Assembly (NCBI GenBank): GCA_014860225.1
Contig: JACZKE010000013.1
Coordinates: 1 to 64,000 of the forward strand
Reading direction: 5' to 3'
DNA: 64,000 nucleotides
Origin: Desulfuromonadales bacterium
GTDB lineage: Bacteria; Desulfobacterota; Desulfuromonadia; Desulfuromonadales; BM103
A model generated the notes under the pieces. That model searched no databases and was not told the DNA's origin. It saw nothing but the letters and a program-made list of their open reading frames with translations. The position numbers and the translations under genes are program-made. This document shows, in pieces, positions 57,251 through 62,143 of the stretch (within the stretch, counting starts at the first letter, position 1; each line of letters begins with the position of its first letter).

Positions 57251-57985
57251 TTAGAAGGTCAGGGTCACCGACACGCCAGAGACCATTTCACTGTCGATCG
57301 ATTGCTTGGCATCATCGCTGATCCCGGAAGAGAACAGGAAAGAAGGGGTGACCGAGATTTGGTCGGTTATTGCGTAGTCGATGCTGGCGCTTAATTCATA
57401 GTTGTGCCAGTCAGAGTAATCGCCGACGGCGTAGTCACTCTCCTGATTATAGCCAACCAGGGCGCCGATGCTCAGACCCAGAGCATCACTCAATTCGTAG
57501 GAATGTCCAATGGAAGCGGTGAAGTAGAGGCCGTCTCCCTGTGCCTCATCCCAGTCGTAGTAAACCTTCACGGCAGGCTCGAGGATGGTCGACAGCGCGG
57601 CCGAAAAATACAGCTCATTGGTATCATCCAGGCCGTCGAGCATGTAGTAAATGTTGCCGACGCTGATGGAGACCAGGTCGTTTATATCGCGTGAATAGTC
57701 TAGTACAATATCGTTCTCTGTGGCTTCACCACTCTTGTAACCTTCACCTGCGTCAGTGCTGAGTTGCAGGTTCGTCCAGTAGCTCAGGGTGAAGTTGCCG
57801 GCGGTCAGGTCAACACCAGCTTGCGCGACGGGCTTGCCACCGCTCAGGTCGAAACCGCGCCACAGGTATTTGTCATAGACGCCGACATAAGCGTCACCTT
57901 CGACTTCGATGGTAGCCAGCGCCGGAGTGCTCACGGCAACCAGGGCCAGGGTCAGGGCGAATGCAATCACAATCAACTTCTTCAT
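57251..57985 (-). CDS. TorF-like outer membrane porin family protein
   Basis: 244 residues with a Sec signal peptide (residues 1-24, ending TPALA) and alternating beta strands ending in a terminal Phe (SVTLTF), typical of an outer-membrane beta barrel. The start EGDAYVGVYDKYLWRGFDLS matches the family annotated as TorF-like putative porin (TIGR02001/Gcw_chp). It follows amtB by 76 bp on the same strand, with a GC hairpin (58023-58045) in the gap that could reduce its expression. Position suggests it helps ammonium or another nitrogen source cross the outer membrane (inference). Confidence 0.8.
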   Translation of the reverse strand: MKKLIVIAFALTLALVAVSTPALATIEVEGDAYVGVYDKYLWRGFDLSGGKPVAQAGVDLTAGNFTLSYWTNLQLSTDAGEGYKSGEATENDIVLDYSRDINDLVSISVGNIYYMLDGLDDTNELYFSAALSTILEPAVKVYYDWDEAQGDGLYFTASIGHSYELSDALGLSIGALVGYNQESDYAVGDYSDWHNYELSASIDYAITDQISVTPSFLFSSGISDDAKQSIDSEMVSGVSVTLTF

Positions 57986-58061: not shown

Positions 58062-59450
58062 TCAGTTCTGACGAACCGGTGACGTTGCGGCACGTGCTGC
58101 GGCAGGAGCGCCAGCATAGCTGGATGCAGGGGATCCCATGCCGCCGAGATGCACAGTCTGGAAGTCGGGGTATGCTTCCATACCGATCTCGGACAGGTCG
58201 AGGCCGCGATATTCATCTTCTTCACTGCAGCGGAGGCCGACGGTGTATTTGATGGCCAGCCAAACAACCGCAGAGGTTGCCAGGACAAAGAGTGCCGTGG
58301 CGGCAACACCGATGAACTGGGTCAGGAAACTGGCTTCGCCGTTGGTAAACGGCACTGCCATGGTGCCCCAGATTCCGCAGACCAGGTGAACCGAGAGAGC
58401 ACCGACCACATCGTCGATCTTGAGCTTGTCGAAGAAAGGGACAGCGAGGACGACCAGCACGCCACCCACGGCACCGATCAACACTGCTGCACCAAGAGAC
58501 GGACTATCAGGACCGGCGGTGATCGATACCAGTCCGGCCAGAGCACCGTTGAGTGCCATAGTGACATCAACCTTTTTGTAGAGGATCTGCACCATGGCCA
58601 TGGCGGCGATCATCCCGCCGCATGCCGCCATATTGGTGTTGACCATGACATTTGACATCGAAATGGCGCTGGCAGCGTCACCCAGGGCGAGTACTGAACC
58701 ACCGTTAAAACCGTACCAACCCATCCAGAGGATGAAGGTACCGAGTGTTGCCATGGGGATATTGGAACCGGGCATCGGGTTGACACGACCGCCCTTGCCG
58801 TACTTGCCTTTCCGGGCGCCAAGGATGATGGCACCGGTCAGAGCTGCCCAGCCACCCACCGAGTGAACGATGGTCGATCCGGCGAAATCGACAAAGCCCA
58901 TTTCCGAAAGCCAGCCGCCACCCCAGCCCCAGGAACCCTGGATCGGGTAGATGATGCCGCACAGGATGGCGCAGAAGAGCAGGAAGGACCAAAGCTTGAT
59001 GCGCTCGGCAACGCACCCGGAGACGATGGAGCAGGCCGCGCCGCAGAAAACCATCTGGAAGAACCAGTCGGAAGCAGCAGCGTAGCCGCTGGAGTAATCG
59101 CCAGCCAGGGCAGCTGCATCATCAGCCGCCCAAAGACCGAAAGAACCGACGAAGCCGCCATCAACACCCGCATACATCAAGTTGTATCCGGTCAAGTAGA
59201 AGAGGATGCCGGCGATGCCGAACAGTGAGATATTTTTCAGGCAGATGGTGGCGACATTCTTGGAACGCACCAGACCGGACTCGAGCATACCGAAACCGGC
59301 GGCCATCCACATAACCAGGACACCCATGATCAGGAAAGAGAAGGTATTCAGGATATAGCTCATCTCGGAGACGGGCACATCTTCGGCCATGGCGAGGGCC
59401 GGAAGAGTCATCATCAAAGTGGCGAGCATGGCAATACGTGACTTTTTCAT
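58062..59450 (-). CDS. amtB: Ammonium transporter with signal peptide and C-terminal extension
   Basis: About 462 residues. A cleavable signal peptide (MKKSRIAMLATLMMTLPALA) precedes the 11-helix Amt core, with pore histidines in STIVHSVGG and LSVHLVCG and the FWYGFN-like WMGWYGFNGG. The tail DEYRGLDLSEIGMEAYPDF contacts PII proteins in relatives. It continues with a Gly/Ala-rich extension of about 30 residues not seen in the copy at 41605. I used the ATG at 59450 behind AAGGAG. It follows glnB by about 35 bp, the classical glnK-amtB pairing. Confidence 0.94.
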   Translation of the reverse strand: MKKSRIAMLATLMMTLPALAMAEDVPVSEMSYILNTFSFLIMGVLVMWMAAGFGMLESGLVRSKNVATICLKNISLFGIAGILFYLTGYNLMYAGVDGGFVGSFGLWAADDAAALAGDYSSGYAAASDWFFQMVFCGAACSIVSGCVAERIKLWSFLLFCAILCGIIYPIQGSWGWGGGWLSEMGFVDFAGSTIVHSVGGWAALTGAIILGARKGKYGKGGRVNPMPGSNIPMATLGTFILWMGWYGFNGGSVLALGDAASAISMSNVMVNTNMAACGGMIAAMAMVQILYKKVDVTMALNGALAGLVSITAGPDSPSLGAAVLIGAVGGVLVVLAVPFFDKLKIDDVVGALSVHLVCGIWGTMAVPFTNGEASFLTQFIGVAATALFVLATSAVVWLAIKYTVGLRCSEEDEYRGLDLSEIGMEAYPDFQTVHLGGMGSPASSYAGAPAAARAATSPVRQN

Positions 59451-59485
59451 TTTTTTCTCCTTAATCTTTGCGATCAATATTTAGT

Positions 59486-59854
<369 letters not shown>

Positions 59855-59856
59855 TT

Positions 59857-59896
59857 AAAAAAGCGCCTTAGCCTCCGCATGCGGAAGTTAAGGCGC
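59857..59896 (-). terminator. Intrinsic terminator in the glnB leader
   Basis: On the minus strand arms 59896-59889 and 59870-59863 form an 8-bp GCGCCTTA stem, extended inside by a palindromic CCGCATGCGG, directly followed by six U residues (59862-59857). It lies between the sigma-54 promoter and the glnB start, so it should stop most transcripts before glnB unless another structure prevents it. Its 5' arm is shared with hairpin P2 of the ANTAR-type motif at 59886-59933. Confidence 0.85.
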
Positions 59897-59933
59897 CATT
59901 GCCTGTCAACTCTATCAAGACGTCGTTGTCTCG
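59886..59933 (-). promoter_or_regulatory. ANTAR-type two-hairpin antiterminator motif in the glnB leader
   Basis: Two successive stems each expose a six-base loop with A at position 1 and G at position 4. P1 (59933-59916) is CGAGAC-AACGAC-GTCTTG, with one G-U pair. P2 is AGGC-AATGGC-GCCT (59904-59891), extended outward by AGTT/AACT (59911-59886). This is the published consensus for RNA targets of ANTAR-domain antiterminators. P2 uses the 5' arm of the terminator at 59857-59896, so P2 and terminator cannot form together. Read by eye, not folded by program. Confidence 0.7.
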
Positions 59934-60005
59934 TTAGTTTATGCTGATATGTTCCCCGGGATCAGGATTACATTGCAGTTTGTCCCGGGTCTGAACTTTC
60001 TATTA

Positions 60006-60020
60006 GCATCAGCCGTGCCA
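60006..60020 (-). promoter_or_regulatory. Sigma-54 promoter of glnB-amtB
   Basis: On the minus strand TGGCAC-GGCTG-ATGC reads from 60020 to 60006: a perfect -24 box, exact 5-base spacing and a -12 box with GC intact (ATGC for TTGC). Transcription should start near 59994, giving a leader of about 165 nt before glnB that contains the antiterminator and terminator. Another hairpin (CCCGGGA arms, 59983-59989 with 59955-59961) lies near the 5' end. Confidence 0.8.
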
Positions 60021-60119: not shown

Positions 60120-61733
60120 TCATACCACAGGCAACCGTACCCGAAAGGTTGTTCCCTCCCCTGGCTGACTCTCCAATGAGATGGATCCACCATGTCCATT
60201 AATAATATTCTGGCAGATGTAAAGGCCGAGTCCGGTCCCTTCACCTTCCGTTTTGGTCGTGAAGAACGGAGCAAATACCTGTTTCTGCAGTTCCGGAGAA
60301 ATCCCCGGCCCGTTATCCTTAACGTGCAGCTCAAGCATCCCATCAGGACTGAGCAAAGTTCGCAGCACGATTCTTCCCTGCCCCTGCATTGCATGTACGG
60401 CGTTCATCACCAGATTGATGATCACTTGTTTAATCTTGTTAGGGTCGGCAGTGATCACGGGTATTGCAGAGAATTCTGTATCAAGTTGTACTGATTTTCG
60501 CTGCAGTTCAAAGCGCAGCAGTCTAAGAACGTCAGATATCAGATTATTCAGGTTGACAACCCGGTTCTTCGTCTCCCGATTGCTCGAAAAAGAGAGCAGA
60601 CCGCCCGTGAGAGTTTTCAGACGCTCTACTTCCATCTCGATTTTCTCAAGCATTTCCTCCTGAAAGTTGGAGAGTGGCTTTTCACGTTTCAGCAATTCTG
60701 TTGCATATGCCACCGTGCTAAGAGGATTGTTGATCTCGTGAGCAATGCCTGCGGTAAGTCGACCAACTTCTGCCAGCTTTTCGTTCTGGATCGTTTGGTC
60801 CAGTAGACGCTTGAATTCGGTAATATCTTCGACTATGACGACGACACCTGTGGTTTCTTCACCATCTTTCAGAGGAGTCAACCTTCGCTTCTGAAAGCGG
60901 TTGGTTCCGTCTGACTGTCTGTGCAGCAGACGTAACTTCGCTTTGGTTCCACTCTGCAGGACCTGGTTAATCATCTCGATAACCCCTTCCCTAAACAGGT
61001 TGGGGAAAAGATCCTGAAGCCGGGAACCGATTGCCCGCTCAGCCGGGACGCCACTCATCTCAACCATTCGGCTGTTCCATGAGGTGATGACTATTTCACT
61101 GTCAACCGTATAAATACCGAGACTGACGCTCTTCAGAATCCGATTGTTGAATTCATGCAGATGCCGATAGCCTTCGGTCATGCTTCTGAGGCGATCATAG
61201 AGTTTTGCATTATTGATAGCGATCGCAGCCTGACGGCCAAGAATCATGAGTGGTTCAATATCCCCGGCCGAAAAAGCCCCCGGCCGGGGACTCTCAACAT
61301 TGAGGACACCGACCAGTTTCTTCTTACTGATCAAGGGCACAGCCAGTTCGCACTGTGCTCCGGGAATGCCTGGGACATAATCAGGCAGTTCGCGTACATC
61401 TTCGACCAGGATCGGTTTTTGAATTTCAGCAGTACGTCCCATGACGCCCTGGCCAATCTGGATAGGACCCATGGCATCCTCGGTATAACCATAGGACGCG
61501 GCTGCAACGAGATGCAATCCGTCATCATCGAGCAGGCGAATAATCGCATTCTCAAAACGGAAAATATCGCGGGCAACTCGAAGCACCGAATCAAGCAGTT
61601 CCTCAAGATCAGTCGTCGATGCAAGCTCTTGCCCAATCTCAATCAGAGCGTTTAATAAGCGCTCCGATTTCTGTTCTGATAGGTTCGATAAATTGGTAGT
61701 AATCATCACATGATCTACTAACGCATAAGCCAT
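60120..61733 (-). CDS. Soluble GAF-PAS sensor histidine kinase
   Basis: 537 residues with no membrane helix or signal peptide. A GAF domain covers about 35-175 (GQGVMGRTAEIQKPILVEDV, ELAVPLISKKKLVGVLNVES), a PAS domain about 195-310, HisKA follows with phospho-acceptor His332 in AGIAHEINNPLS, and HATPase ends at GTGLGLYICQNIINGHGG. It senses an intracellular signal. It lies just upstream of the glnB operon on the same strand. In Geobacter a cytosolic kinase drives an ANTAR-type regulator of nitrogen genes; this kinase is a candidate counterpart, but no response regulator is in the window. The start could also be the ATG at 61706. Confidence 0.88.
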   Translation of the reverse strand: MAYALVDHVMITTNLSNLSEQKSERLLNALIEIGQELASTTDLEELLDSVLRVARDIFRFENAIIRLLDDDGLHLVAAASYGYTEDAMGPIQIGQGVMGRTAEIQKPILVEDVRELPDYVPGIPGAQCELAVPLISKKKLVGVLNVESPRPGAFSAGDIEPLMILGRQAAIAINNAKLYDRLRSMTEGYRHLHEFNNRILKSVSLGIYTVDSEIVITSWNSRMVEMSGVPAERAIGSRLQDLFPNLFREGVIEMINQVLQSGTKAKLRLLHRQSDGTNRFQKRRLTPLKDGEETTGVVVIVEDITEFKRLLDQTIQNEKLAEVGRLTAGIAHEINNPLSTVAYATELLKREKPLSNFQEEMLEKIEMEVERLKTLTGGLLSFSSNRETKNRVVNLNNLISDVLRLLRFELQRKSVQLDTEFSAIPVITADPNKIKQVIINLVMNAVHAMQGQGRIVLRTLLSPDGMLELHVKDNGPGISPELQKQVFAPFFTTKTEGEGTGLGLYICQNIINGHGGSISLESQPGEGTTFRVRLPVV

Positions 61734-61909: not shown

Positions 61910-62143
61910 CATTGGCTAATCAGCTAAGCTCTCTGCCCTGTAGGTGAGGTCGCTATGTCCACGCGGAATATTTCTTCATCGGGAAGGTTTCTTATGAACG
62001 TGGTGTGCAAGCCCGCCGAGTAGCGGGACGCCTGAAGCGTTCATAGACCCACCCACTTAGTTGGTCGTCGTCGTGAGACCACGGACCCACGGCAGGCGTG
62101 GAGAGCTGCAGAAAAGACGTCGGGAGATCCGGCGTCTTTTTAT
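61910..62143 (+). ncRNA. Structured non-coding RNA, 6S-like
   Basis: A stretch of about 230 nt begins at a sigma-70 promoter and ends at an intrinsic terminator. A closing stem pairs GCTCTC-TGCC (61928-61937) with GGCA...GAGAGC (62091-62106). Inner stems include TATGAACG with CGTTCATA, and an apical CCCGC/GCGGG within GGTGT/ACGCC. The single long irregular hairpin with a central open region and size near 180 nt inside the closing stem fits 6S RNA (ssrS), which binds RNA polymerase. The 6S assignment is tentative; that it is a non-coding RNA is better supported. Confidence 0.5.
62112..62143 (+). terminator. Intrinsic terminator of the ncRNA
   Basis: AAAAGACGTC (62112-62121) pairs with GGCGTCTTTT (62131-62140) with one G-U pair around a 9-nt loop, followed by more T residues. 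It lies about 130 bp before the TraB-family gene, so it ends the upstream RNA. Confidence 0.85.

Follow-up and report, generated by a model that had tools for sequence, protein, structure and literature searches.

Among the described systems closest to the leader considered here is that of Geobacter sulfurreducens, in which GnfR is reportedly an ANTAR antiterminator whose gene adjoins nifHDK. The genes GSU2822 (gnfR) and GSU0941 (gnfK) are annotated as a response regulator and a sensor histidine kinase, respectively, for nitrogen fixation (PMC7962754). Primer extension has revealed sigma-54 promoters for glnB GSU1836 and for nifEN, and the PII gene GSU0939 has an RpoD-type start under the conditions used there (PMC2725144). 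The ANTAR-target motif was defined in 2012 by Ramesh et al., whose covariance search located such leaders before PII, ammonium-transporter, and nitrogenase genes and a three-unit nitrogenase regulon in Pelobacter carbinolicus (PMC3369931). The type of switch is thus already known before PII and ammonium-transporter genes (PMC3369931), and the glnB leader described here adds to it; what goes beyond the known type are tandem units before nifHDK and a G in place of A at the first position of some loops. In the crystal structure of the ANTAR protein EutV, 11 residues contact the RNA and, according to the parts of the report drawn on here, the A at loop position 1 (A1) makes no specific contact, its suggested role being to prevent pairing across the loop (PMC8934654). 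Among the literature matches listed, in which subscription journals are mostly not represented, no other publication was seen to treat the glnB leader in this group; this leaves aside the content of a sigma-54 regulon paper, PMC12316311, that is among the matches.

The window analyzed here is a stretch of 64,000 nucleotides from a Desulfuromonadales bacterium (contig JACZKE010000013.1), and on its minus strand a sigma-54-type promoter is followed by two hairpins (P1 and P2), an intrinsic terminator, an SD-like AAAGGAG, glnB, and amtB. The consensus core recognized by sigma-54 is TTGGCAC-N5-TTGC, with -24/-12 elements of the TGGCAC-N5-TTGC type, and the predicted promoter TTGGCACGGCTGATGC (60021-60006, minus) deviates from this core by a single mismatch (ATGC for TTGC). 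P1 (CGAGAC-AACGAC-GTCTTG, 59933-59916, minus; hexaloop AACGAC at 59927-59922) and the antiterminator hairpin P2 (AGGC-AATGGC-GCCT, 59904-59891, minus; hexaloop AATGGC at 59900-59895) display the features of ANTAR-target RNAs: stems of at least 3 bp (6 bp in P1, 4 bp in P2) with six-base loops, A1 and G4 in both loops, and a short linker joining P1 to P2 (11 nt here, 10-18 nt across the family, and up to 21 nt among correctly parsed leaders of the order). P1 can be extended via CTA/TAG over an A.A mismatch, and P2 can be extended to 59911-59886. The terminator (59896-59857, minus; stem 59896-59863, U-tract 59862-59857) overlaps P2 in the manner of ANTAR-target RNAs, and because its 5' arm includes the 3' arm and the last loop bases of P2, the two structures are mutually exclusive. 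An earlier note on this DNA had described a -24/-12 promoter, two A1/G4 hexaloop hairpins, and a terminator sharing an arm with P2, and sequence and folding find all of these in place. The predicted terminated RNA between promoter and terminator is ~135 nt long. Close to its presumed start, a tentative 5' hairpin (P0, 59955-59989, minus) folds alone to -14.1 kcal/mol; over 15 family leaders its mean z is -1.25, with z < -1.5 in 7 of them. Directly 5' of P1, an ATCAGCA element (~59950-59940, minus) is kept in 8 of 15 family leaders.

The first gene after the leader, glnB/glnK (59486-59827, minus), encodes a PII protein of 113 aa (PF00543, 1.9e-32) and starts with ATG at 59827, behind the AAAGGAG at 59842-59836. 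It is followed by the ammonium transporter gene amtB (58062-59477, minus; TIGR03644 603.7 bits and TIGR00836 349.5 bits, both above cut-off), whose true start is probably a little downstream of the mechanical ORF start. A TorF-family porin-like gene 3' of amtB (57251-57985, minus; TIGR02001 35.4 bits, under the cut-off of 47.15) is possibly the third gene of the unit. Since porin-like genes also stand behind two leaders elsewhere (L222, where the protein looks similar by eye, and L270, where it is 46% identical), an outer-membrane porin may belong to the ammonium regulon. Upstream of the leader, a sensor kinase gene (60120-61706, minus; Pfam GAF, PAS_4, HisKA, and HATPase_c) has a mechanical ORF start at 61733, and the ATG at 61706 appears likelier by eye in comparison with locus L095. 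Divergent from this gene is a 6S RNA (61927-62108, plus; 103.8 bits, gathering score 46.4), the sole Rfam match above gathering score in the window and away from the leader.

Folding energies suggest which of the two exclusive structures prevails. The terminator hairpin is predicted at -21.9 kcal/mol, P2 alone at -4.4 kcal/mol, and extended P2 at -6.8 kcal/mol; because the leader folds freely to -54.5 kcal/mol and to -45.8 kcal/mol with P1 and P2 forced, the terminator would be the default. The fold of positions 59800-60000 has z = -2.95. When the leader is shuffled with its dinucleotides preserved, 14 of 5000 versions contain any two A1/G4 hexaloop hairpins (>=4 bp, gap 0-15), a count for which overlap with a terminator was not required. 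A search with the pattern ACAANGNNGTN{8,38}CAANGNNG across the whole genome gives 23 matches, compared with 21 for a reversed control, and only the glnB leader among the 23 was folded. A sigma-54 scan with TTGGCACRNNNNWTGCNNT gives eight places, none with a close hexaloop pair; this pattern is so strict that even the glnB promoter escapes it.

A search of 22 family genomes with the PII protein gave matches in 20, so that the best-match loci (L002-L021) were found by gene and not by motif. Both hexaloop hairpins are present in 16 of these 20 loci, with A1/G4 in both loops in 13 of the 16 and a P2 loop that begins with G in the other three (L016-L018; the glnB leaders of genomes G019, G020, and G021). 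A close A1/G4 pair is found in none of ten paralogous glnB leaders (L022-L031) under a filter that did not cover G1 loops. Judged from these sequences, the arrangement of hexaloop hairpins before glnB is not due to chance (16/20 family loci versus 0/10 paralogues). Two further loci (L014 and L015, in G013 and G011) keep P2 without a hexaloop P1 and are possible single-hexaloop variants, two have neither hairpin (L013 and L020, in G018 and G008), and an additional family leader, in G009, is found through a model (R1) built from 15 family leaders. A sigma-54-type -24/-12 element precedes every one of the 16 two-hairpin leaders, and the kinase gene is directly upstream of glnB in all 16 and also in L014 and L015. 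Sequence searches for the ANTAR domain succeed in 19 of the 22 genomes and fail in G008, G017, and G018, and whole or partial leader and ANTAR domain are concordant in 22/22. The absences are soft, since completeness is 87% for G017 and 82% for G018 and the G008 glnB is just 64% identical; the G008 locus may be a paralogue. At G018 a promoter-like site is kept, with no hairpins and no kinase gene upstream. The ANTAR gene of G011 and G013 is more divergent and lies 2.4-3.1 kb from the leader.

Covariation supports both exclusive structures. Among the 15 family leaders, P1/P2 pairs form in 99.3% of cells with both sides changing in 5 of 10 pairs, and terminator pairs form in 92.2% of cells with both sides changing in 7 of 13 pairs. 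A larger alignment of 62 leaders combines these 15 with L095 and 46 of 47 glnB leaders from outside the family, leaving out L007 (with the core of L006), L236 (a near copy of L233), L014, L015, five non-glnB leaders, and four chance places; L095 equals L225 there, which leaves 61 distinct rows. The P1/P2 stems of this alignment hold 104 double-change cells against 24.0 +/- 6.8 in shuffles, and their covariation score is 0.480, compared with a maximum of 0.182 for slid versions, figures to be read with the fitting to R1, which favors P1/P2 pairing. The covariance of P1 and P2 in relatives, by which the earlier note had proposed to judge the hairpins, is thus present in both sets. The terminator, with 37 double-change cells (14.4 +/- 3.1 in shuffles) and a score of 0.311 (at most 0.193 when slid), covaries more weakly in the larger set; it has four pairs with double changes, and at least as many are seen in 200 of 500 shuffles and in three of the six slid versions. 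At the base common to P2 and the terminator, the three partners read G-C-G in 28 of 62 rows, A-T-A in 15, and T-A-T in 1, and at least one partner is unpaired in 13. Conservation is concentrated in the two six-base loops and their closing pairs, and the linkers and the terminator apex vary. Position 4 is G in 61/61 P1 loops and 62/62 P2 loops, and position 1 is A in 60/61 and 59/62, respectively, in rows that were found with a motif model favoring such conservation and of which one (L246, genome G052) has no aligned P1. These counts use the 62-row alignment, the automatic parse having failed or mis-picked in L221, L224, L229, L231, L233, L236, L246, L247, L248, L250, and L251.

Beyond the family, R1 matches 65 of 136 genomes of the order. 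Among 56 places inspected outside the family, 47 sit 25-59 nt before glnB, with amtB next as a rule, and five are non-glnB leaders. The L222 leader lies 3' of an ANTAR gene and 5' of a porin-like gene (named by eye), and L248 is assigned to no gene. By-eye naming also puts the L242 leader (G074) before a draT-like and draG-like pair, and the L255 and L256 leaders (G107 and G108) before a NifB-like radical-SAM gene. The remaining four (L243, L249, L254, and L257) were judged to be chance matches with no query gene nearby, L243 and L257 being inside ORFs and L249 and L254 being judged from sequence only. Sigma-54-type sites precede 41 of the 47 glnB leaders (missing: L221, L224, L233, L236, L237, and L250) under a loose pattern for which a hand estimate expects about one chance match per twenty such stretches. 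The kinase gene is directly upstream in 31 of the 47 and not in the other 16. The L095 locus has the gene row kinase, leader, glnB, and ANTAR gene, and its kinase is the only close one (56%) among the best 80 matches listed in a kinase-profile scan of named genomes.

A broader model (R2) from the 62 leaders matches 84 of the 136 genomes, and ANTAR domains are found in 106. Both occur in 79 genomes, the leader only in 5, ANTAR only in 27, and neither in 25, so that an ANTAR domain is found in 79 of the 84 leader-bearing genomes versus 27 of the 52 others (Fisher p = 1.3e-8, shared descent ignored); with R1 the corresponding numbers are 60, 5, 46, and 25 (p = 1.3e-4). The five genomes with a leader and no PF03861 match are G063, G075, G082, G084, and G134, of which G075 and G134 are estimated to be 99% and 100% complete. 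The 27 genomes with ANTAR and no R2 match have to be read knowing that R1 and R2 were fitted to leaders of the glnB type. Physical linkage, with an ANTAR gene at most 11 kb from a leader, is seen in 27 genomes. The earlier note had also proposed an ANTAR-type switch and a double gate, and this proposal is strengthened by the tracking of the leader by ANTAR genes and by the sigma-54 sites (16/16 in the family, 41/47 elsewhere); the loops and the P2-terminator overlap, on whose conservation the note had staked its reading, are both conserved in orthologous leaders.

At class level, 152 of 277 genomes and 63 of 82 genera have an R2 match (E 0.001). Twenty-one of the listed class places outside the order were read: five are before nifH (L261, L265, L272, L274, and L275), two before glnB (L260 and L263), ten before the gene of a secreted-looking protein (start ..ATPSTQIWIPSTD.. 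or alike) with glnB ~1 kb further on in five cases, one (L270) before a porin-like gene that glnB follows, and three before other genes, L260b and L276 having a weak amtB match. Sigma-54-type sites precede 18 of the 21. Within the genome of the window, a single R1 match is strong (3.2e-19). Three others have E 2.2-3.8; two of them, L055 and L057, have the look of chance matches, and the remaining one overlaps the leader from the opposite strand. Because both models miss the nifH leader of this same genome, they are unfit for mapping the regulon.

The genome encodes one ANTAR response regulator, a receiver-ANTAR protein scoring 83.3 bits against a cut-off of 27.3. Its gene lies in the nif cluster (L085), 5.7 kb from nifH and divergent from draG (called by TIGR02662) and from a gene that we take to be draT-like from its position, no NCBIfam model having matched its protein. 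The closest solved proteins by sequence are the putative antiterminator 1s8n and the response regulator 6wsh, which we take to be EutV. In our reading of an alignment with chain numbers shifted by two, six of the 11 EutV residues that contact RNA are identical in the regulator (Arg142, Lys143, Lys149, Glu160, Met172, and Arg175), two are conservatively changed (Lys147 to Arg, Tyr164 to Phe), and three differ (Gln for Arg168, Asp for Asn173, and Ser for Arg177). As its partner we propose, from gene neighborhood, the kinase encoded upstream of glnB. A sigma-54-type site, TGGCATGGCTTATGC (61737-61723, minus), precedes the kinase gene, with a counterpart, TGGCACATATTATGC, before the L095 kinase gene. 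Such sites are also seen before the ANTAR gene and the draT-like gene (L085, 13240-13400); a strict sigma-54 pattern occurs within 200 nt before the ANTAR gene for only 6 of 19 family genes. Since sites of this type precede the kinase, ANTAR, and draT-like genes, sigma-54 may govern the sensor and the regulator as well as their targets.

We conclude, with a probability of roughly nine in ten, that the leader is an ANTAR-target transcription attenuator behind a sigma-54 promoter, at which an activated ANTAR regulator prevents termination, so that glnB-amtB is gated twice. In nitrogen-poor cells, a sigma-54 activator protein would start transcription at the -24/-12 promoter. The nascent RNA would then fold either into the terminator, by default, or into P1 and P2, which exclude it, the covarying pairs defining both structures. 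The upstream-encoded GAF-PAS kinase, whose gene is inherited together with the leader and the ANTAR gene, would phosphorylate the single ANTAR response regulator, presumably on a nitrogen-starvation signal; a dimer of the regulator would bind the hexaloops through G4 and hold P2, and the polymerase would continue into glnB. Such a mechanism puts the central ammonium-sensing pair, PII and AmtB, behind an RNA gate after initiation in a large class that includes Geobacter relatives, and it names one kinase and one ANTAR regulator as the probable partners.

An alternative is that the ANTAR protein does bind the leader but that an important part of its effect is exerted in trans: each time sigma-54 is active, the terminated leader would be produced and would act as a small RNA that titrates the protein. 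EutX and Rli55 are small RNAs that titrate an ANTAR protein. A defined promoter and a defined terminator would yield a discrete RNA of the length given above, and P0 would give it a 5' hairpin; however, the position of 47 of the 56 non-family places just before glnB argues for control in cis, and we regard the trans reading as unlikely. That some other ligand, such as a metabolite (as in a riboswitch), PII, or another RNA-binding protein, operates the switch is still harder to credit. The leader does control a nitrogen gene, and ligand-controlled terminators share its mutually exclusive pairing, but Rfam (release 15) has no family that matches the leader at gathering score (the best sub-threshold match, narK, reaches 18.2 of the 43.2 bits needed), what is conserved in the 62 leaders is two six-base loops with their closing pairs, and ANTAR genes track the leader. 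Least probable is that the terminator simply ends transcripts of the kinase gene, without regulation, and that the hairpins are accidental: the kinase gene does end 224 nt upstream on the same strand, but the promoter lies between it and the terminator, which glnB transcripts from that promoter must therefore cross, the loops and the P2 stem are conserved while linkers and terminator apex vary, 16 of 47 non-family leaders have the switch with no kinase gene directly upstream, and the leader is absent from G018 and from the possibly paralogous G008 locus, both in genomes with no ANTAR match.

The attenuator reading preferred here extends to nitrogenase. The nifHDK leader of the genome of the window consists of two successive attenuator-like units (L085 on contig C46, ~8020-7680, minus), with G1 in the first hairpin. 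Twelve of the 22 family genomes have nifH, and 11 leaders were read, the twelfth (G012) being a truncated match. In all 11, a sigma-54-like site is present, the first unit comprises P1, P2, and a terminator-like fold, and there is a second hairpin of the P2 type, GGGC-loop-GCCC; the -12 element is TGA instead of TGC in the genome of the window and in G002. The second hairpin overlaps a second terminator-like hairpin, folded for the genome of the window only, and the U-tract is poor there. Most likely, the same ANTAR protein also opens these tandem attenuators. Position 1 of the P1 loop is A in 5/11 nifH leaders and G in 6/11, and that of the P2 loop is A in 7/11 and G in 4/11; G4 proves nothing here because it was a search condition. 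The G-for-A variants are natural tests of the view that G4 is the base that is read (PMC8934654), and easy tolerance of G1 is disfavored because GATGGC loops could pair G1 with C6. Two genomes estimated to be 99% and 100% complete (G005 and G007) have the leader and an ANTAR gene with no nifH match, so the link of the leader to nitrogen fixation is not obligatory, and leader genomes of this kind hint at a gate that works for ammonium supply as well as for nitrogen fixation. A wider reading, which we hold to be slightly more doubtful than probable, is that the requirement for both sigma-54 and ANTAR is the core nitrogen switch of the whole class, acting on ammonium uptake first and nitrogenase second, persisting where nifH is not found, and recognizing hexaloops by G4 while accepting either purine at position 1, in place of the textbook A1/G4 pair.

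Compared with GnfK/GnfR, the likeness lies in an ANTAR regulator encoded by the nif genes and in class genomes outside the order that have leaders before nifH and before units containing glnB, and the anatomy of the nifH leaders would fit the nif antitermination reportedly associated with that pair. The present system differs in having the kinase gene directly before glnB-amtB and in occurring also where nifH is not detected. The leaders of the 2012 report share with the glnB leader two A1/G4 hexaloop hairpins, a P2 that overlaps an intrinsic terminator, and an association with nitrogen genes, whereas sigma-54 promoters, an adjoining kinase gene, and the variation between purines at loop position 1 do not appear in the main-text parts of that report considered here (PMC3369931). 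With EutV/EutW and eutP of Enterococcus faecalis, as far as the parts of the two reports drawn on here describe them (PMC3369931, PMC8934654), the system shares the RNA anatomy and a receiver-ANTAR protein with six of 11 contacts identical and two conservative, but it serves nitrogen assimilation instead of ethanolamine utilization, has a sigma-54 promoter, and separates its hairpins by family linkers of 10-18 nt, compared with 5-12 nt in eut.
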